A stretch of DNA of 64,000 nucleotides from Paenibacillus aceti (GTDB lineage Bacteria > Bacillota > Bacilli > Paenibacillales > Paenibacillaceae): the NCBI RefSeq assembly GCF_003614185.1, contig NZ_KZ987724.1:1294159-1358158 (forward strand). The letters run 5' to 3'. The notes beneath the pieces were generated by a model. That model worked only from the letters and a program-made list of their open reading frames with translations, had not been told where the DNA came from and ran no database searches. This document shows, in pieces, positions 31,811 through 40,672 of the stretch; within the stretch, counting starts at the first letter, position 1; the number at the start of each line of letters is the position of its first letter. The position numbers and the translations under genes are program-made.

Positions 31811-31839
31811 TTGACAAAGAAATTTATTAGCACTATGAT
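31811..31839 (+). promoter_or_regulatory. Sigma-A promoter of the tyrS T-box transcript
   Basis: TTGACA at 31811-31816 and TATGAT at 31834-31839 are separated by 17 bp. Transcription would start near 31846, just before the T-box leader. Confidence 0.88.
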
Positions 31840-31845
31840 TGCTGT

Positions 31846-32108
31846 AATCTAATATTGGATGCACGATGAAAGAGCGAAGTAGCAAGTTTGTCACTGCTCA
31901 GAAAGCCAGGGGTTGATGCGACCTGGTCATACAAACTACTGCGAATTACACTCCGGAGTAACTTAGGTAACGCTAAGCGGACTGGCAATCGATATCATTG
32001 CTAAGAGTGGTATTAATGGTGAACTGCAGCGCCATTGATGCAATTTGGGTGGTAACACGGTTAATAAATCGTCCCTATGTCTAAAATAGACAAGGAGACG
32101 ATTTTTTT
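31846..32108 (+). promoter_or_regulatory. Tyrosine-specific T-box leader with terminator
   Basis: Stem I pairs AAGTTTGT near 31889 with ACAAACT near 31934, and GAATTAC near 31945 offers a UAC (Tyr) specifier. The T-box core GGGTGGTAACACG is at 32047-32059, whose UGGU can pair with uncharged tRNA ACCA ends. A terminator (AAATCGTC/GACGATTT, 32066-32108, seven T) follows. Low charged tRNA-Tyr should allow read-through into tyrS. The specifier reading is by eye. Confidence 0.92.
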
Positions 32109-32146: not shown

Positions 32147-33412
32147 ATGATGAACATTATCGATGAATTGGAATGGCGCGGAGCAATTAACCAACAGACT
32201 GATGCTGAAGGTTTACGTAAGTTAACAAGTGAGAAGTCGATTTCATTGTACTGCGGTGTTGATCCTACCGGTGACAGTATGCATATAGGGCACTTGATTC
32301 CGTTTATGATGCTGAAGAGATTCCAGATGGCGGGCCACCGTCCAGTCATCCTCATTGGCGGAGCAACCGGTACGATCGGAGATCCAAGCGGACGCACTTC
32401 AGAGCGTACACTGCAGACGATGGAGCAAGTACAGAAGAACGTAGACGCACTGACGGCACAAATGAAGAAACTGTTCCTTAATGAAGGTAACACTGGACTT
32501 CGCATGGTGAACAACCACGATTGGATGAAAGATATTACTATTCTGGATTTCCTTCGTGACTTCGGTAAAAACTTTAGTGTAAATACAATGCTGGCGAAGG
32601 ATATCGTGGCTAGCCGCCTCGATTCGGGGATCTCATTCACCGAGTTCTCGTACCAGATCCTTCAATCCATCGACTTCCTGCATCTGTTCAAGAATCAGGA
32701 TGTGCAGCTGCAAATCGGTGGTGCCGATCAATGGGGTAATATTACAAGTGGTCTTGACTTGATCCGTAAGAAGGAAGGACCAGACGCCCAAGCCTTCGGC
32801 TTGACGATTCCTCTGATGCTTAAAGCAGACGGTACGAAATTTGGTAAAACAGCGGGCGGAGCTATCTGGCTTGATCCGAAGAAGACAACTCCATTCGAGT
32901 TCTTCCAGTTCTGGGCCAACCAAGATGACCGGGATGTTATCAAATACCTGAAATTCTTCACCTTCTTGTCTAAGGAAGAGATCGAAGCACTTGAAGAGAA
33001 GGTAAAGACTGAGCCGCATAAACGTGAAGCACAGCGTGTACTTGCTGAAGAAATGACCCGATTCGTTCATAGCGAAGAAGCACTGGCTCAAGCCAAGAAA
33101 ATTACCGAAGCACTGTTCAGCGGTGACATCAAAGCACTGACTGCTGACGAAATCGAACAAGGCTTCAAGGAAATGCCTACATTCCATGCTTCCAACGAAG
33201 CTAAGAATATTGTGGACTGGCTGGTTGATGTAGGTATTGAACCATCCAAGCGCCAAGCTCGCGAAGATATTACGAACGGTGCGATCTCCTTGAACGGTGA
33301 GAAAGTAACGGATACGGAAATGAATATTACGGTAGATAACTCCTTTGAAGGCAAATTCATTATTATTCGTAAGGGTAAGAAGAATTACAACCTTGTTAAA
33401 CTCGGAGAATAG
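32147..33412 (+). CDS. tyrS: Tyrosyl-tRNA synthetase
   Basis: This 421-residue class I synthetase charges tRNA-Tyr. The HIGH-type motif HIGHLIPF is near residue 42 and KFGKT, equivalent to KMSKS, near 231. A C-terminal S4 RNA-binding domain follows (PSKRQAREDITNGAISLNGE). It is under the Tyr T-box. It heads a tyrosine decarboxylation locus, as tyrS does in Enterococcus and Lactobacillus. There may be another tyrS elsewhere for housekeeping. ATG at 32147 and 32150 are both possible starts after AGGGAGA. Confidence 0.96.
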   Translation: MMNIIDELEWRGAINQQTDAEGLRKLTSEKSISLYCGVDPTGDSMHIGHLIPFMMLKRFQMAGHRPVILIGGATGTIGDPSGRTSERTLQTMEQVQKNVDALTAQMKKLFLNEGNTGLRMVNNHDWMKDITILDFLRDFGKNFSVNTMLAKDIVASRLDSGISFTEFSYQILQSIDFLHLFKNQDVQLQIGGADQWGNITSGLDLIRKKEGPDAQAFGLTIPLMLKADGTKFGKTAGGAIWLDPKKTTPFEFFQFWANQDDRDVIKYLKFFTFLSKEEIEALEEKVKTEPHKREAQRVLAEEMTRFVHSEEALAQAKKITEALFSGDIKALTADEIEQGFKEMPTFHASNEAKNIVDWLVDVGIEPSKRQAREDITNGAISLNGEKVTDTEMNITVDNSFEGKFIIIRKGKKNYNLVKLGE

Positions 33413-33430
33413 CTGATTTCAGCTATTCTC
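33405..33430 (+). terminator. Hairpin containing the tyrS stop codon
   Basis: A perfect 11-bp stem GAGAATAGCTG/CAGCTATTCTC has a 4-nt loop and includes the tyrS TAG at 33410-33412. TTCCCTT follows, a poor T-tract. It may be a partial terminator, or be opened by ribosomes finishing tyrS. Confidence 0.55.
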
Positions 33431-33461: not shown

Positions 33462-34166
33462 GTGCTGGGTACATGGAGAAAACCACTTGAACTTGCATTT
33501 TTTAATCATCGTTTGATATCGGAAGTGAACCGGTTTAACAAGGTGAATTGGCTGATTATCGATTTAGGAATCAAGCATGTCACTGCAGAGCATATCAATG
33601 AAGTCCTCGACAGCATGCTGGTTGGATTTAACCGACTCTTTAAATATAAGAAGGTAAAGCAAGCGAATCTTGGTTACTTCCGGATGCTCGACATTATAAT
33701 AGAAGAAGAACGATTTAATCCGGTCATTCATGTCCTGTTGCCAACCATCAAGAGTTACTTCCAAGGGCGTTACTACATTAAATTAAGTGAGTGGGCAACG
33801 CTGTGGCATAAGGCACTGGACATGAGACCGGAATATGATTTATCGGTGGAAGTGAATACACTGAATAGTAAGAGTGACCAACCATCCATCATCGATAGCA
33901 TGGAGCAAGGCCTAATTCTCTTACATAATGTACCGGACCGACCACAAACGAAGAGCAATGATACGATTTCATCTCGAAGGCTTATCGGATATAGCCGATT
34001 ATTGAAAGAGTATGTAGATCGGATTCATCCAAAAATTGAATATAATTTACATCATTATGATATAAATGATCCATTTGCCAATAGCGCTTTTAATTTAATG
34101 AGACATTGGCATTCAGGAATTAGAAACCAAAAGGAATTTGATCTAAAGCAATCTTCTCTACTATGA
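33462..34166 (+). CDS. Rolling-circle plasmid Rep-derived protein (Rep_1/pC194 family, degenerate)
   Basis: This 234-residue protein aligns by eye with the central part of pUB110/pC194-type Rep proteins. RFNKVNWLIIDLGIKHV, FNRLFKYKKVKQANLGYFR and SYFQGRYYIKLSEWATLWHK match conserved Rep blocks. The N-terminal Cys-rich block is absent. The HUH metal motif reads NPVIHVLL, not PHFHVLI, so the first His is lost. The segment that should carry the catalytic Tyr (AKYSGK-like) is replaced by SMEQGLILLHNV. It is therefore probably not a nickase. The GTG at 33462 has GGAGGCGGGG ahead and the frame is intact, suggesting selection. It sits between tyrS and the tyrosine transporter. Its role is unknown; DNA binding is a guess. 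Confidence 0.72.
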   Translation: MLGTWRKPLELAFFNHRLISEVNRFNKVNWLIIDLGIKHVTAEHINEVLDSMLVGFNRLFKYKKVKQANLGYFRMLDIIIEEERFNPVIHVLLPTIKSYFQGRYYIKLSEWATLWHKALDMRPEYDLSVEVNTLNSKSDQPSIIDSMEQGLILLHNVPDRPQTKSNDTISSRRLIGYSRLLKEYVDRIHPKIEYNLHHYDINDPFANSAFNLMRHWHSGIRNQKEFDLKQSSLL

Positions 34167-34202: not shown

Positions 34203-34250
34203 TCAAACTGATTTTTAGCTCTTCAAACGGCTGAAAATCGGTTTTTTTGT
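34203..34250 (+). terminator. Terminator after the Rep-derived gene
   Basis: The imperfect stem AAACTGATTTTTAGC/GGCTGAAAATCGGTTT is followed by a T-run and TTTTCTTTTTC. Confidence 0.8.
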
Positions 34251-34778
34251 TTTCTTTTTCCAGCTATTTGGCCAGTCGATTTTTTATTGATTTTTCAAAT
34301 ACTAGAAATATTGATTGAAATTACTTCTTTTGTAAAATGGATTTTTCCGCGTTTAAAACGACTTAACCATTCTGTGCTCCGCATAAGTATGCGTTTTCAC
34401 AAACCTATCTGCAACCTCCCACTATATTCCTCAACTTGGGGTAATGTGCAGTCATAAGTTCCTTTCACACAAGACATGATAACGATAAGCAAAAAGCCCA
34501 ACAGCCAGCCCTTATGTACTGCCTAATTTTCTCAATCGAAAAGGAGTGCTGCTTATAAAAAAAATAGAATATCCAGCAAAATGCTCATTTGTAATTCTTA
34601 ATATTTATTCATTAAATGACATTTTTATTCACAACTTTTGCCTGAAAATGCTTTAATCCATAAAAGCAAAAAAGGTTTAAAGCCTTTAGCTATGAAATAG
34701 TAAAACCTTTAAAGTGACTATTAATAAGATTCTGGGAATTATCTATAAATCCTTATGTGACAAGGATTTGAACCGAAT
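34251..34778. other. AT-rich intergenic stretch ahead of the tyramine transporter gene
   Basis: About 530 bp with no plausible ORF. It contains short A/T-rich inverted repeats (for example around AAAGGTTTAAAGCCTTT near 34670-34686). No T-box core or known riboswitch motif was seen. It may serve as a regulatory spacer. Confidence 0.4.
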
Positions 34779-34830
34779 TGACACAACAAAAAATTAGGCG
34801 TATATTGACGAAGAAAGTTAATCGATTAAC
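34779..34830 (+). promoter_or_regulatory. Promoter and palindromic operator of the tyramine operon
   Basis: TTGACA (34779-34784) and TATATT (34801-34806) have 16-bp spacing. A perfect 14-bp palindrome GTTAATCGATTAAC (34817-34830) lies where the transcript should begin. Its centre CG and size recall LacI-type or cre-like operators, but it does not fit the cre consensus closely. Confidence 0.6.
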
Positions 34831-34952
34831 GAATTCATAAAATTTCCTTGCACCAAAACTTCTAGATACATCCAGATATTTGTAATACATCAATTATTCA
34901 TATTTGGATGCATCAGGAAGTCAAGATTAAAGAGAGAAAGAAGGGAGACTTT

Positions 34953-36359
34953 ATGGCCAATTCAAAAAAATTAACCCTGTTCGGGTTGATTGGGATTACG
35001 ATGGCCTTCTTCGGTACAGTACGTAGTGTACCGACGCTCGCTATCACCGGTTGGACACAAATTTTCTACATGCTGGTTGCAGCGATCTTATTTGCACTTC
35101 CGATCGCATTGATGTCGGCAGAACTGTCAACAGGATTCCCTGAAGAAGGCGGACCACAAGTCTGGGTTAAAAAAGCAATCGGAGAAAGATGGGGTTTTGT
35201 TACCTCATGGCTCCTATGGGTACAAATGTTCTTCGGTATGGTTATGGTTGCTTCAACTGTAGGTGTACTGTTTGGATATGTCATTAACGCTCCACATTTA
35301 TCATCGAATAACGTATTCATTTTTGCAGTAATTCTGATTTCTTACTGGGGAGTTACACTCCTTAACCTGAAATTCGATATGGTTAAAATCGCCGGTAACT
35401 GGGGTTCGATTATCGGGGTTTACATTCCTTTCGTAGTTCTGGTTGTTCTCGGTCTTGCTTATATGATCAAGAACGGTATTAACCCAAGCGGCTACTTGGC
35501 TAACTTCAAGGCTGGCGATCTGTTGCCTAACCTTAGTGATCTGGGGAGTCTAGCTTACCTGTCAGGGATCATCTTCATCTTTGCCGGTGTCGAGATTTCC
35601 TCAGTGCATGCGAATAACATTGAAAATCCAAAACGCAACTACCCAATTGCGGTAATTGCCTCTGTAATCCTGTTGGTTATCTTCAACTTGATTGCTGGTT
35701 TGACAGTTTCTAACGCAGTACCTATGGGTAAAATGGAACTTTCCAACATTACTCAGCCATATATGATCTTCTGTCAAGATCTAGGCATTCCATCTATTTT
35801 CGTTAACATCATCTCTGCGATGATCTTGATCGGTGTCTTGGTACAGCTTAGTGCCTGGGTACTTGGACCAAGTAAATCAATGATTAAAGTTGCAGATGAA
35901 GGCAACTTGCCACCATTCTTCCAAAAGAGAAATAGCAAAGGGATTCCAATCACTTTCGTATTGATTCAAGCGATTGTTATTTCCTTGGTCTCGGTTATGT
36001 ATATCGTAGTGCCTGACGTAAACAGTGCATTCTTGGTAATCACCATCACAACTACAATTCTTTACTGTATCGTATATGCCTTGATTGCGATTTCTGCTGT
36101 GCGTCTGCGTTATAAAGAGCCCAATATGGATAGACCATTCCGTCTTGGCAAGAGTAATGGCTTAATGTGGTTCGTTGCTATCCTGTCGATAGTCAGTGTT
36201 CTAATTACCATCATGGTCAGCTTGATTCCACCATCCATTTTGCCAGCAAGCTTCTCCACAGCATACGTCATTTACCAAATCGTTGCGACAGTAGTCATGG
36301 TTGGCGTTGCCCTGATTATATATAAGTTCAAAAAACCTAGCTGGAAAAAAAGTGATTAA
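34953..36359 (+). CDS. tyrP: Tyrosine/tyramine antiporter-like amino acid permease (TyrP-type, APC superfamily)
   Basis: This 468-residue membrane protein has ~12 helices and belongs to the glutamate/GABA-antiporter branch of the APC superfamily. Its N-terminus MANSKKLTLFGLIGITMAFF precedes TVRSVPTLA, and SAELSTGFPEEGGPQVWVKK is the conserved first-loop region. The ATG at 34953 follows AAGGGAGA; the ATG at 34908 lacks a site. Its place directly before tyrosine decarboxylase identifies the probable substrates: tyrosine in, tyramine out. The exchange would consume an internal proton equivalent and give acid resistance and proton-motive force. Confidence 0.88.
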   Translation: MANSKKLTLFGLIGITMAFFGTVRSVPTLAITGWTQIFYMLVAAILFALPIALMSAELSTGFPEEGGPQVWVKKAIGERWGFVTSWLLWVQMFFGMVMVASTVGVLFGYVINAPHLSSNNVFIFAVILISYWGVTLLNLKFDMVKIAGNWGSIIGVYIPFVVLVVLGLAYMIKNGINPSGYLANFKAGDLLPNLSDLGSLAYLSGIIFIFAGVEISSVHANNIENPKRNYPIAVIASVILLVIFNLIAGLTVSNAVPMGKMELSNITQPYMIFCQDLGIPSIFVNIISAMILIGVLVQLSAWVLGPSKSMIKVADEGNLPPFFQKRNSKGIPITFVLIQAIVISLVSVMYIVVPDVNSAFLVITITTTILYCIVYALIAISAVRLRYKEPNMDRPFRLGKSNGLMWFVAILSIVSVLITIMVSLIPPSILPASFSTAYVIYQIVATVVMVGVALIIYKFKKPSWKKSD

Positions 36360-36430: not shown

Positions 36431-38302
36431 ATGAACTATCAAATTCCTGAAATTAACCTCAAAGCATTGTTCCTTGGCGACAAAGGCGAAAACGTTGATT
36501 TGTTCAAGGACATCTTATTGAAAATGGTTGACGAGCATGTAGGCTGGCGTCAAAATTACCAACCTCAAGACTTGCCGGTTATCACACCTTTCGATAAAAG
36601 TTCAAAGAGCTTTCAAGATACTGCAGACCATATGCGCAGCGTATTCAATGTATTATCTTCGAAACTTCGCTCTAAATCGCTGCCATGGCATACAGCTGGA
36701 CGTTTCTGGGGTCATATGAACTCCGAAACCTTGATGCCTGCCATTATCGCTTATTCAGCAGCAATGCTCTGGAACGGTAATAACGTGGCTTACGAATCTT
36801 CCCCAGGTACATCTGAAATGGAAGAAGAAGTTGGACATGAATTGGCTAAAATGATGAGCTACAAACCAGGCGAAAGCTGGGGCCATATCTGTGCTGACGG
36901 TTCCATCGCTAACCTGGAAGGCTTGTGGTATGCACGTAACATCAAATCCTTGCCACTCGCATTCAAGGAAGTTGTTCCTGAAATGGTTGAAGGCAAATCC
37001 GAATGGGAATTGCTGAATATGTCCACTGAAGAAATCATGGATATCGTTCAAAAGGTTCCTGATAAAATGGATGATATTAAAGCCGTATCCGCTCGTAGCG
37101 GTAAAAACCTGCAAAAGCTAGGTAAATGGCTCTTCCCACAAACGAAGCACTATTCCTGGCCAAAAGCTGGCGATATCATCGGTATTGGTCTTGACCAAGT
37201 AGAAGCAATCGATGTAGACAGTGAATATCGCATGGACATCACTAAACTGGAACAACGTATCCGTGAATTGGCTGCAGAGAAAATTCCGGTACTCGGCGTT
37301 GTCGGCGTTGTCGGTAGTACAGAAGAAGGTCAAATCGACCATATCGACAAGATTGTCGAACTTCGTAAAAAACTGGCTAAAGAAGGCATTTACTTCTATA
37401 TTCACATTGATGCTGCTTATGGCGGTTACGCACGCTCGATTTTCCTGGATGAAAATGATCAATTTATCGATTATGATAAGATCGATGAAGTATACAAGAA
37501 ACACCATATCTTTACCGATATGAAATTGAAGGATGAATGGCTGACTGAAGACATCTACAATGCCTTCAAAGCATTCAGTGAAGTTGAATCTGTAACGATC
37601 GACCCTCACAAAATGGGTTATATCCCTTACTCTGCTGGCGCGATTGCAATCCGCGACATCAGAATGCGTGAAGCGATCTCTTACTTCGCAACTTATGTAT
37701 TTGAAAAAGGCGCTGACATTCCTGCATTGCTTGGTGCTTATATCCTTGAAGGTTCCAAAGCCGGTGCAACTGCAGCCGCTGTATGGACAGCTCATAAAGT
37801 ATTACCACTGAACGTAACTGGTTATGGTAAACTAATGGGTGCCAGCATCGAAGGTGCATATCGCTTCTACAACTTCTTGAAAGACAAGAAATTTAATGTT
37901 AATGGCAAGACTATCGTACTTCATCCATTGACTAAACCAGACTTCAACATGGTTGACTATGTATTTAATGAAGAAGGCAACACTGACTTGGTGAAAATGA
38001 ACAAATTGAACCATGACTTCTTCGACTATGCTTCCTATGTTAAGGGCGGTTTGTATAGCAATGAATTCATCACTTCCCATACTGACTTCGCTATTCCAGA
38101 CTATGGCAACAGCCCATTGGAATTCGTGAAGAGCCTTGGATTCACTGAGGCAGAATGGGATCGTGCAGGTAAGGTTACTATCCTTCGTGCTTGCGCATTG
38201 TCTCCTTATGCTCATGATGAAGCAACATTTGAAGATTATGCAGCTAAGATCGAGAAAGCAATGCAAGACAAGCTCGAACAAATCTACATGTACGAAATGT
38301 AA
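36431..38302 (+). CDS. tdcA: Tyrosine decarboxylase, PLP-dependent
   Basis: This 623-residue group II decarboxylase has the size and motifs of the bacterial TDC of Enterococcus/Lactobacillus. It has [20 protein letters not shown] near residue 95, the HIDAAYGG segment with the PLP-ring Asp near 322, and [12 protein letters not shown] carrying the Schiff-base Lys394. It converts tyrosine to tyramine and CO2 in the cytoplasm. CACGGAGGTAACAAC precedes the ATG. It lies 71 bp after the antiporter gene, making a two-gene core unit. Some homologues also use phenylalanine, so phenethylamine may form as well. Confidence 0.95.
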
Positions 38303-38353: not shown

Positions 38354-38386
38354 CTCTTTATCCATAATAAGGGGTGGTTTTTGAAC

Positions 38387-39211
38387 ATGTCGAACATAAG
38401 AAAAGTGCTTACAGTTGCAGGCTCAGATTCAAGCGGAGGGGCAGGGCTTGAGGCCGATCTGAAGACATTCCAGGAATATGGAACCTTTGGATTCTGCAGT
38501 ATTACCTCCATTGTAACGATGGACCCCGATAACAATTGGCATCACGACGTAACGCCGATCGATCCAGAACTGGTTCACAGACAGATCAAGACCGTATTAT
38601 CCGGTGGCAAGCTTGATGCGTTGAAGACTGGGATGCTCGGTTCCGTTGAAGTAATTGAGCTGTTAAGCAAAATTATTGATGAGAATGATATCGCTAACAT
38701 CGTCATTGACCCGGTCATGGTATGCAAAGGGGAGGACGAAGTCGTTCAACCTGAGAATGGACATGCCATCCGTGAATTACTGCTGCCTAGAGCAACCATC
38801 ACTACGCCTAATCTGTTCGAAGCTGGTCAACTGGCCGGAATGTCCAAGGTAAAAACCATCGACGATATGAAGGAAGCTGCGCGGCAGATCTTCGATCTGG
38901 GCGTTAAGAATGTCGTTATCAAAGGCGGCAAGACCCTAGAAGCTGAGAAAGCCGTTGATCTACTGTATGACGGTAATGAATTTACGCTGTATGAAGCTGA
39001 CAAACTGGAAACAAACCATAATCATGGGGCAGGGTGTACCTTCGCAGCAGCCATCGCAGCTGGTTTAGCTAAGGGAATGCCGGTTAAAGCTGCGGTATCC
39101 AAAGCCAAGGAATTTACAACAGCGGCTATTCATGGCGGATTTGCCTTTAATCGCTATGTAGGGCCAGTTTGGCATGGGGCATTTAATAAGGCCGAAGGGC
39201 GTATTGAATAA
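38387..39211 (+). CDS. Pyridoxal/hydroxymethylpyrimidine kinase (ThiD/PdxK type)
   Basis: This is a 274-residue ribokinase-fold kinase. VLTVAGSDSSGGAGLEADLK is near residue 5, DPVMVCKGED near 108, and TNHNHGAGCTFAAAIAAGLA near 208, where the catalytic-base motif GAGCTF resembles Bacillus-type PdxK/ThiD. It phosphorylates pyridoxal or HMP. Its position between tyrosine decarboxylase and nhaC suggests PLP supply for the decarboxylase rather than thiamine synthesis. The ATG at 38387 lies nine bases after AAGGGGTGG; a TTG two codons earlier is the alternative. Confidence 0.88.
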   Translation: MSNIRKVLTVAGSDSSGGAGLEADLKTFQEYGTFGFCSITSIVTMDPDNNWHHDVTPIDPELVHRQIKTVLSGGKLDALKTGMLGSVEVIELLSKIIDENDIANIVIDPVMVCKGEDEVVQPENGHAIRELLLPRATITTPNLFEAGQLAGMSKVKTIDDMKEAARQIFDLGVKNVVIKGGKTLEAEKAVDLLYDGNEFTLYEADKLETNHNHGAGCTFAAAIAAGLAKGMPVKAAVSKAKEFTTAAIHGGFAFNRYVGPVWHGAFNKAEGRIE

Positions 39212-39304: not shown

Positions 39305-40672
39305 ATGAACAAAGAGGTTACACTAAAAGAAAGCCTGTTTCTGTTAGTCGTTCTGTTAGCGATTATTGGAGCATGCATTATTGGTCTCGGGATGGATCCA
39401 CAAATTCCGATTTTGATATCTCTGGGCGTTATTATCATCTTCGCGAAAATTAAAGGGGCTTCCTGGGATCGTATCCATAAAGGAATTTCCAACGGGATTA
39501 GTCCCGGGCTTATACCTATTCTCATCTTTATGCTCATCGGAGCATTGATCAGCGTCTGGATCTCCGCAGGAACCATTCAGACCATCATGATATATGGCTT
39601 CAAAATATTATCCGCTAAATACTTTTTGCCTTCCGTATTTGTTATTTGCGCAGTCGTAGGGGTTACTGTAGGCAGCTCGTTCACGACGATCTCAACCGTA
39701 GGTATCGCATTCTTCGGCATGGGGCAAATTATGGGCTATGATCCTGCAATTACGACTGGCGCCATCATTTCAGGTGCCTTCTTGGGCAACAATATCTCTC
39801 CATTATCTGACACAACCAATCTGGCGTCTGCCATTGCCGAGGTCGATCTATTTGAACATATCCGTTATATGATGCGTGTCGTCATACCTGCTTTTCTGAT
39901 CACAGTGATCTTCTTTGCGGTTATGGGACATGCTAATGTATTAACGACAGGGGATCAAGTTAATGAGCTCGTTAATACATTAAGTACATCATTTCCTATT
40001 TCGATCGTTACCTTAATACCAGTTCTAGTGCTATTCCTGTGCGCATGGCGTAAGGTACCTGCAATTCCGACGTTGCTGTTAAGTATCGTCTTCACGATCG
40101 GTGTTATTTATATTTATCATCCGCATACCAGCCTATCGGACATTTCGGCGCTGATGCAGAATGGTTATGTAGCTAACACTGGAGTAGAGAGTGTAGATAA
40201 GCTGCTTACGCGTGGCGGTATACAGAGCATGATGTGGTCGGTATCCTTGATTCTCCTGGCACTCGCTCTGGGCGGTTTGCTTGTCGAGATGAATATCATC
40301 AAGACGATTATCTCGCGGATCACTTCCTTCGTAAGTACAAAGGGCAAACTGATCTTAATGACAGGCCTCAGTGCAATGGGAGTTAACTTGCTGCTAGGCG
40401 AGCAATACTTATCGATTATTCTGCCGGGTGAAGCGTTCAAGGCACAATACGATGCGATCCAATTAGATCGTAAGGAAATGTCGAGAATCCTCGCTAACGG
40501 AGGCGCAGCAGTGAATGCCTTGATCCCATGGGGCGTAAGCGGCGTGTTCATCACAGGCACCCTGGGCGTTTCGACATTGGATTATCTACCGTTCGCCGTT
40601 TTCTGTATCGCAGCGCCAATCTTGAATATTTTGTTCGGATTTGTAGGCAAAAAATCGGCAAAATCCTCTTAA
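39305..40672 (+). CDS. nhaC: Na+/H+ antiporter NhaC family
   Basis: This 455-residue membrane protein has ~11-12 helices. Its NhaC signatures are GISPGLIPILIFMLIGAL near residue 62, VGSSFTTISTVGIAF near 120 and FLGNNISPLSDTTNLASAI near 160. It exchanges Na+ for H+ or acts as a related antiporter. In enterococcal tyramine loci nhaC closes the cluster, and the same order is found here. It has ATAAGGAG ahead of the ATG. With the antiporter and decarboxylase it would help manage internal pH and sodium. Confidence 0.93.
   Translation: MNKEVTLKESLFLLVVLLAIIGACIIGLGMDPQIPILISLGVIIIFAKIKGASWDRIHKGISNGISPGLIPILIFMLIGALISVWISAGTIQTIMIYGFKILSAKYFLPSVFVICAVVGVTVGSSFTTISTVGIAFFGMGQIMGYDPAITTGAIISGAFLGNNISPLSDTTNLASAIAEVDLFEHIRYMMRVVIPAFLITVIFFAVMGHANVLTTGDQVNELVNTLSTSFPISIVTLIPVLVLFLCAWRKVPAIPTLLLSIVFTIGVIYIYHPHTSLSDISALMQNGYVANTGVESVDKLLTRGGIQSMMWSVSLILLALALGGLLVEMNIIKTIISRITSFVSTKGKLILMTGLSAMGVNLLLGEQYLSIILPGEAFKAQYDAIQLDRKEMSRILANGGAAVNALIPWGVSGVFITGTLGVSTLDYLPFAVFCIAAPILNILFGFVGKKSAKSS

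Follow-up and report, generated by a model that had tools for sequence, protein, structure and literature searches.

The closest described relatives of the locus treated here are the tyrosine decarboxylation (tdc) clusters of Enterococcus, which comprise tyrS, tdcA, tyrP, and nhaC in the portions of the literature available to us. In Enterococcus durans, tyrS is controlled by a T-box and most highly expressed without tyrosine, while tdcA and tyrP are raised by this amino acid, and overexpression of TyrS left both tdcA expression and tyramine unchanged (PMC3315439, available portions). Another report, likewise available in part, describes HisR2, a TrpR-family regulator proposed for tdcP-tdcA-tyrT and present as a paralogue in tdc clusters of Paenibacillus alvei, Carnobacterium, and Enterococcus, together with a general HisR consensus of TTTA-N6-TAAA (PMC9413887). 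In these portions, neither source names a Rep-like gene for tdc clusters. Here, we analyze such a gene, hereafter rep, which lies between tyrS and tyrP in a stretch of 64,000 nucleotides of Paenibacillus aceti (contig NZ_KZ987724.1, positions 1,294,159 to 1,358,158; "the window"). A sequence-only reading of the window had proposed that it is a domesticated gene of the pC194/pUB110 replication protein class. The Reps of both plasmids belong to the Pfam family Rep_1 (PF01446), according to the part of PMC5714925 available to us.

We find rep to be an established component of the Paenibacillaceae-type tdc locus and are highly confident that it arose by chromosomal domestication of a pC194/pUB110-class (Rep_1) Rep. 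Its product may be a nucleic-acid-binding regulator of the locus, which we propose tentatively.

Relationship to plasmid replication proteins

The rep gene starts with GTG at 49 nt 3' of tyrS and runs over 234 codons. It had initially been credited with an open frame and a strong ribosome binding site; the frame is confirmed and so is a GGAGG of good sequence, though this ends 12 nt before the start codon, which is a long spacing. The window protein matches Pfam Rep_1 with an E-value of 1.2e-24 (87.6 bits at a cut-off of 33.2), and all 16 members of our alignment A1 match the same profile at E 0.001 or better. When 72,556 plasmid records were searched by tblastn at a loose limit (E 10), 1742 had a match, including 304 that cover at least 80% of the query, and all are below 60% identity, i.e., the tdc form was not found as a free plasmid gene. 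The plasmid relatives are pUB110-class Reps: among the 60 plasmid matches listed, identity is 33.5-37.0% at 89-94% coverage, mostly to Bacillus genes named 'protein rep'. Profile search and plasmid matches thus bear out the proposed descent from a Rep. No match was obtained from NCBIfam and PHROGs or from a PDB sequence search at E 1, and the own genome holds no second match at E 10.

Residues were compared across the 18 tdc-locus members found in total (see below) and 16 plasmid-type Reps; at any given key Cys, His, Glu, or Tyr column, no more than one of these 16 deviates. Three losses had been read from the window protein, and each extends to the whole tdc group. The four conserved Cys positions of the N-terminal block are absent or replaced in all 18 members. 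The metal motif, described as xIH in place of HxH, has lost its first His throughout, with the refinement that the substitute varies (V, R, T, or K); the second His of this HUH motif (His90) is retained in 16 of 18 members and is Tyr in the other two. The E-x3-Y segment, which we take to be the catalytic segment of pC194-type Reps, is seen in 16/16 plasmid-type Reps and replaced in 18/18 tdc members, none of which keeps either the Glu or the Tyr. The FLTLT motif is altered as well.

Much else has persisted. Fifteen or more of the 16 plasmid-type Reps agree at 42 columns, and ten of these columns are kept in every tdc member (L35, G71, R74, L92, Y99, Y105, W111, W115, R173, and K182). Identity within the tdc family (17 or all 18 members) extends to 58 columns; in 28 of them the residue is shared with half or more of the plasmid-type Reps, and 10 are tdc-specific. 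Position 179 is Arg or Lys in all tdc members vs Gly in all plasmid-type Reps, and position 34 is Asp or Glu in 17/18 vs Thr in 16/16. These features fit a replaced function rather than random decay. Judged by its sequence, the protein is a Rep without its nicking centre that retains much of the core along with conserved basic residues.

Distribution, selection, and domestication

Counts of genes in genomes rest on cut-offs of E 1e-150 for tdcA and E 1e-8 or 1e-10 for rep, and the genome sets of the order and the class are even samples. Across 395 genomes of the family, rep is present in 16, each time as a single copy without internal stop. The order sample of 393 genomes has it in 10, including two (G444 and G446) from another family. 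This gives 18 distinct members from a single order, spread over two families and always located between tyrS and tyrP of tdc loci. Presence of rep follows that of tdcA, which 20 of the 395 family genomes carry: rep occurs in 16 of these 20 (it is lacking in G031, G176, G192, and G266) and in none of the 375 others. In the order sample, tdcA was found in 12 of 374 genomes, eight of them with rep, and the other four (G176, G192, G266, and G461) have no rep at the locus. The early suggestion that rep could be an unrecognised part of the locus gains from this association and from its adjacency to tyrS in 18/18 cases.

A class sample of 388 genomes gave 22 matches, among which only those in the window genome and G225 (E about 1e-111) are of the tdc form. 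The remaining 20 are at E 1.3e-48 or weaker; where loci were read, 13 of these have frames of 282-430 codons, and the rest include several short or broken pieces. Among the 395 family genomes, no plasmid-type match at E 1e-8 or better was seen. When the window protein alone served as the query, no tdc-form match was confirmed on viral contigs, and a contig scan with one query sequence yielded one named relative, Paenibacillus sp. GM2.

In a tree with the 16 plasmid-type Reps, the tdc members fall on one side of a branch with 100/100 support that separates them from the plasmid-type Reps and has a length, as drawn, of 1.37 changes per column on the side of the tdc members. Ratios of nonsynonymous to synonymous substitution rates (dN/dS) were calculated for ten pairs of rep, one of which (G260/G268) was dropped because dS was undefined. 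NG86 values are 0.109-0.183 in eight pairs, with dS above 1 in five of these eight and with G000/G011, G000/G032, and G011/G032 not being independent, and 0.388 in G086/G225, a pair with 8 differences. YN00 gave 0.122-0.220 for the pairs with a value and 0.418 for G086/G225. When changes were placed neutrally in 300 simulations, amino-acid changes exceeded those observed in all simulations for five of six pairs and stops arose in 294-300 of 300; the sixth pair was uninformative (8 changes). Frames are open over 223-237 codons in 18/18 members, and that of G444 ends earlier at the C-terminus. Selection is therefore purifying.

We also compared the flanks of rep on three plasmids with the spacers before rep in 16 loci and after rep in 18. 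The 26-bp stretch that pBV454-3 and pUB110 share is unmatched there, and the best other match, with three plasmids tried, is 17 bases in G163 (E 4e-4). Lost catalytic residues, separate grouping, purifying selection, and a fixed position together support the domestication that had been suspected from the window.

Locus organization and a possible regulatory role

Our locus comparison covers 29 tdc loci. Eighteen carry rep, four lack it (G031, G192, G266, and G461) and have the same kind of long spacer with promoter and palindrome, and seven are of another type (G176 and second copies in G218, G225, G253, G259, G444, and G446). All 18 rep-bearing loci share the order tyrS, rep, tyrP, tdcA, kinase-like gene, and nhaC, and a TrpR-family gene follows in 17; none was found in G011 (L019) within the remaining 3.2 kb of the stretch. 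The placement of rep between tyrS and the tyrosine transporter, as first described, is thus shared by all 18, and its start lies 43-184 nt downstream of tyrS in the 16 loci measured. Features of the window are collected in Table 1.

Table 1. Positions of rep and of the genes and signals around it in the window
Feature	Position	Strand	Basis
sigma-A-type promoter TTGACA-17-TATGAT, likely of the tyrS-rep unit	31811..31839	+	pattern scan, 11/12 matches, 18 bp before the T-box leader
T-box leader, specifier UAC (Tyr)	31857..32079	+	Rfam RF00230, 96.5 bits, E 3e-21
tyrS, tyrosyl-tRNA synthetase of the tdc locus	32147..33412	+	Pfam tRNA-synt_1b E 3.9e-84; adjoins rep in 18/18
12-bp perfect inverted repeat spanning the tyrS stop (GAGAATAGCTGA-TT-TCAGCTATTCTC), possible attenuator	33405..33430	+	read in sequence
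rep-derived gene, 234 aa, nuclease-dead Rep_1 homologue	33462..34166	+	Rep_1 E 1.2e-24; 18 members; purifying selection; catalytic motifs lost
predicted intrinsic terminator after rep	34205..34244	+	16-pair stem and T tail
conserved block 5' of the tyrP promoter, TGCTTT/AAAGC-type repeats	34649..34777	+	alignment of 22 loci, 18 with and 4 without rep
sigma-A-type promoter of tyrP-tdcA, TTGACA-17-TATATT	34778..34806	+	11/12 matches; TTGACA at the aligned site in 22/22 loci
palindrome GTTAATCGATTAAC, likely operator of the TrpR/HisR2-type regulator of the locus	34817..34830	.	conservation in 20/22 loci
tyrP, amino-acid permease; tyrosine/tyramine exchanger by context	34908..36359	+	Pfam AA_permease_2 E 1.4e-49
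tdcA, tyrosine decarboxylase	36431..38302	+	Pfam tyr_de_CO2_C E 2.4e-67
kinase-like gene, presumably pdxK	38381..39211	+	in 18/18 loci with rep
antiporter, which we take to be nhaC-like	39305..40672	+	in 18/18 loci with rep, in two pieces in G446
TrpR-family regulator, called HisR2 in PMC9413887	40756..41175	+	Pfam Trp_repressor E 6.9e-31; in 17/18 loci with rep

Some loci show further peculiarities. A second tyrP-tdcA copy without rep, promoter, or palindrome occurs in six genomes (L024 2829-7514, L080 2954-7735, L066, L067, L068, and L101) and lies directly upstream of the first in two of them. The rep-less locus of G031, with a tdcA that lies nearest to the window group, has tyrP in two pieces in different frames (L062 9834-11257), i.e., a frameshift or an assembly error. 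In G446, which has rep and has lost the palindrome, nhaC is split into two overlapping pieces (L080 15694-17060).

A T-box precedes tyrS in all 18 loci with rep, in the four rep-less long-spacer loci, and in three of the five other-type loci that were fetched as separate stretches; its UAC specifier was read by eye from the printed alignment of the window only. Given the T-box in 18/18 loci, rep is probably made together with TyrS under tyrosine shortage, and we infer that the two genes are co-transcribed behind the Tyr T-box. Read-through from tyrS into rep may be attenuated by the inverted repeat that spans the stop codon of tyrS. Inspected by eye, this repeat varies among the members, with a T-run following in some and the repeat absent from others. 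The terminator-like hairpin after rep recurs by eye in most aligned spacers, and the scan that predicted it found 2 terminators vs 1.8 expected by chance. Likewise, the promoter scan gave 11 sites vs 9.4 expected, and the promoters assigned to tyrS and tyrP are the only two with 11/12 matches.

Upstream of the tyrP promoter, about 130 bp are conserved in 22 loci irrespective of the presence of rep. The palindrome GTTAATCGATTAAC just downstream of the -10 box is exact in 20 of these 22 long-spacer loci, has one mismatch in G461, and is lost from G446; searching 700 bases, we did not find it within 3 mismatches in the seven other-type loci. At up to 1 mismatch it is a single site in its own genome, where a reversed control pattern also occurs once, so the argument for GTTAATCGATTAAC rests on its conservation. 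We considered it as a site for the Rep-derived protein and set this aside, given that three of the four rep-less loci keep it exactly and the fourth with one mismatch, while G446 has rep and lost it. Its 4-6-4 form, which resembles HisR sites on our reading of the printed consensus, and the occurrence of HisR2 in tdc clusters assign it to the TrpR-family gene, and GTTAATCGATTAAC is probably the operator of this regulator. Spacers after rep (e.g., L030 and L032) also contain ARG-box-like (TGAAT-N4-ATTCA) and GTGATATATATCAC-like palindromes by eye.

From this arrangement, we propose the following sequence of events. Transcribed with tyrS behind the T-box, rep would be expressed when tRNA-Tyr is uncharged, so that its product would rise at tyrosine shortage. 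The protein would bind, but not cut, DNA (or RNA) of the locus and would adjust, most likely lower, the expression of tyrP-tdcA when tyrosine is short, with HisR2 acting alongside, probably via GTTAATCGATTAAC. That TyrS overexpression is without effect on tdcA in E. durans leaves room for another tyrosine-linked regulator. Taken as a whole, a domesticated Rep with a regulatory role is held no more firmly than its weaker part and is accordingly put forward as a tentative proposal. The full scenario, in which a rolling-circle initiator became a nuclease-dead regulator that turns the T-box readout of tRNA-Tyr charging into silencing of tyrosine decarboxylation under tyrosine starvation, is more doubtful again.

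Several observations weigh against this proposal. No spacer word of 6-8 bases is common in loci with rep and absent from the four without it beyond what permutation yields; the strongest cell of this test (7-mers in at least 12 of 18 loci) was equalled by 22 of 200 permutations, and given this negative outcome the regulatory role is something that we infer. The four rep-less loci G031, G192, G266, and G461 keep block, promoter, and palindrome (with the one mismatch in G461), so that Rep alone does not account for the block, and the seven other-type tdc loci persist without rep, block, promoter, or palindrome. Predicted isoelectric points range from 7.0 to 9.8, i.e., not every tdc member is strongly basic. 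Fold matches in the PDB are weak: Foldseek returned nothing at or below 1e-3, and the structures matched besides 2x3g and 4er8 are mostly unrelated by appearance. Values of dN/dS for rep are 2-5 times those of its neighbours in most pairs (range about 1-10); five neighbouring genes are mostly at 0.02-0.1 in the same pairs. Finally, the rep label requires 7 changes on the tdcA tree; shuffled labels need 9.0 on average, and 49 of 500 shuffles reach 7 or fewer. The four long-spacer loci that lack rep take four changes. This clustering is weak and would fit a locus that recombines or in which rep has been lost or transferred repeatedly.

The best of the alternatives is that the protein acts not at the tyrP promoter but on the RNA or charging side, as a partner of TyrS, tRNA-Tyr, the T-box leader, or the tyrS-rep hairpin. 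The short distance of rep to tyrS and the invariant T-box are consistent with this, as are the tRNA-His guanylyltransferases and poly(A) polymerases among the weak fold matches and the lack of a DNA target from the word test, and we nonetheless consider it unlikely. Considerably less probable is a dominant-negative or decoy Rep that hinders pC194/pUB110-class rolling-circle plasmids entering the cell. The protein has indeed kept a large part of the Rep core without catalysis, and the family genomes are free of plasmid-type matches at our threshold, though plasmids may simply be missing from draft assemblies; the Cys block is lacking, and a restriction to tdcA genomes would be unexpected for plasmid defence. 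We see hardly any chance that the protein is still a nuclease with an active site rebuilt from His90 and acidic residues such as that at position 34, where plasmid-type Reps have Thr, since two members carry Tyr at 90 and the Tyr, Glu, and first metal His are gone from all 18 with differing substitutes. A decaying, functionless relic of an integrated plasmid, for which the absence of rep from four otherwise alike loci and its raised dN/dS might speak, is rejected as very improbable in view of the purifying selection, with all frames open and amino-acid changes below neutral in five of six pairs, the grouping of all 18 members together, and, in the comparison with three plasmids, the lack of a recognised plasmid origin or of any stretch in the spacers like the 26-bp one of the control plasmids.

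Comparison with known systems

It is well known that transposases and nucleases can be exapted. In the open-licence literature (with subscription journals and preprints outside this scope), we found no Rep of the pC194/pUB110 class described as a nuclease-dead chromosomal component of a metabolic locus. A regulatory role of rep would matter, as the way in which tyrosine raises tdcA and tyrP while lowering tyrS is only partly explained, with TyrS overexpression having left tdcA unaffected in E. durans (PMC3315439, available portions). A protein that probably shares the T-box transcript of tyrS would be a natural candidate for the link between tyrS and tdcA. If this is true, a protein arm built from an HUH replication domain has been added to a T-box switch. 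The tdc Rep family also shows which parts of the Rep core survive when catalysis is dropped.

The Rep_1 initiators of pC194/pUB110-type rolling-circle plasmids (e.g., Bacillus p1414 and pBV454-3) are homologous to the tdc members over up to 94% of the length. They share the same motif order as well as W111/W115, Y99/F100/Y105, R74, R173, and K182, all of which are retained in 18/18 tdc members except F100 (17/18). Unlike these initiators, the tdc members have no Cys block, no complete HUH motif, and no E-x3-Y, and they sit in a chromosomal tdc locus with no plasmid origin recognisable beside them on comparison with three plasmids. A domesticated transposon protein turned regulator is reportedly found in TldR, which derives from TnpB and is likewise said to have lost nuclease residues while retaining a nucleic-acid-binding core. 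The protein class is different, however: here it is a plasmid rolling-circle initiator, for which binding is proposed.

The HisR2 system, as far as the available portions of its description go, resembles our locus in the TrpR-family gene and in a palindrome of 4-6-4 form, which here lies at the tyrP promoter and reads GTTA-N6-TAAC vs the general HisR consensus TTTA-N6-TAAA (PMC9413887), and HisR2 is unrelated to the Rep-like protein. The tdc cluster of Enterococcus, in the portions available, likewise combines a T-box-controlled tyrS with a separately regulated tdcA/tyrP unit (PMC3315439). The locus described here differs in the Rep-derived gene between tyrS and tyrP, in the reversed order of tyrP and tdcA, and in the kinase-like and TrpR-family genes that belong to it.
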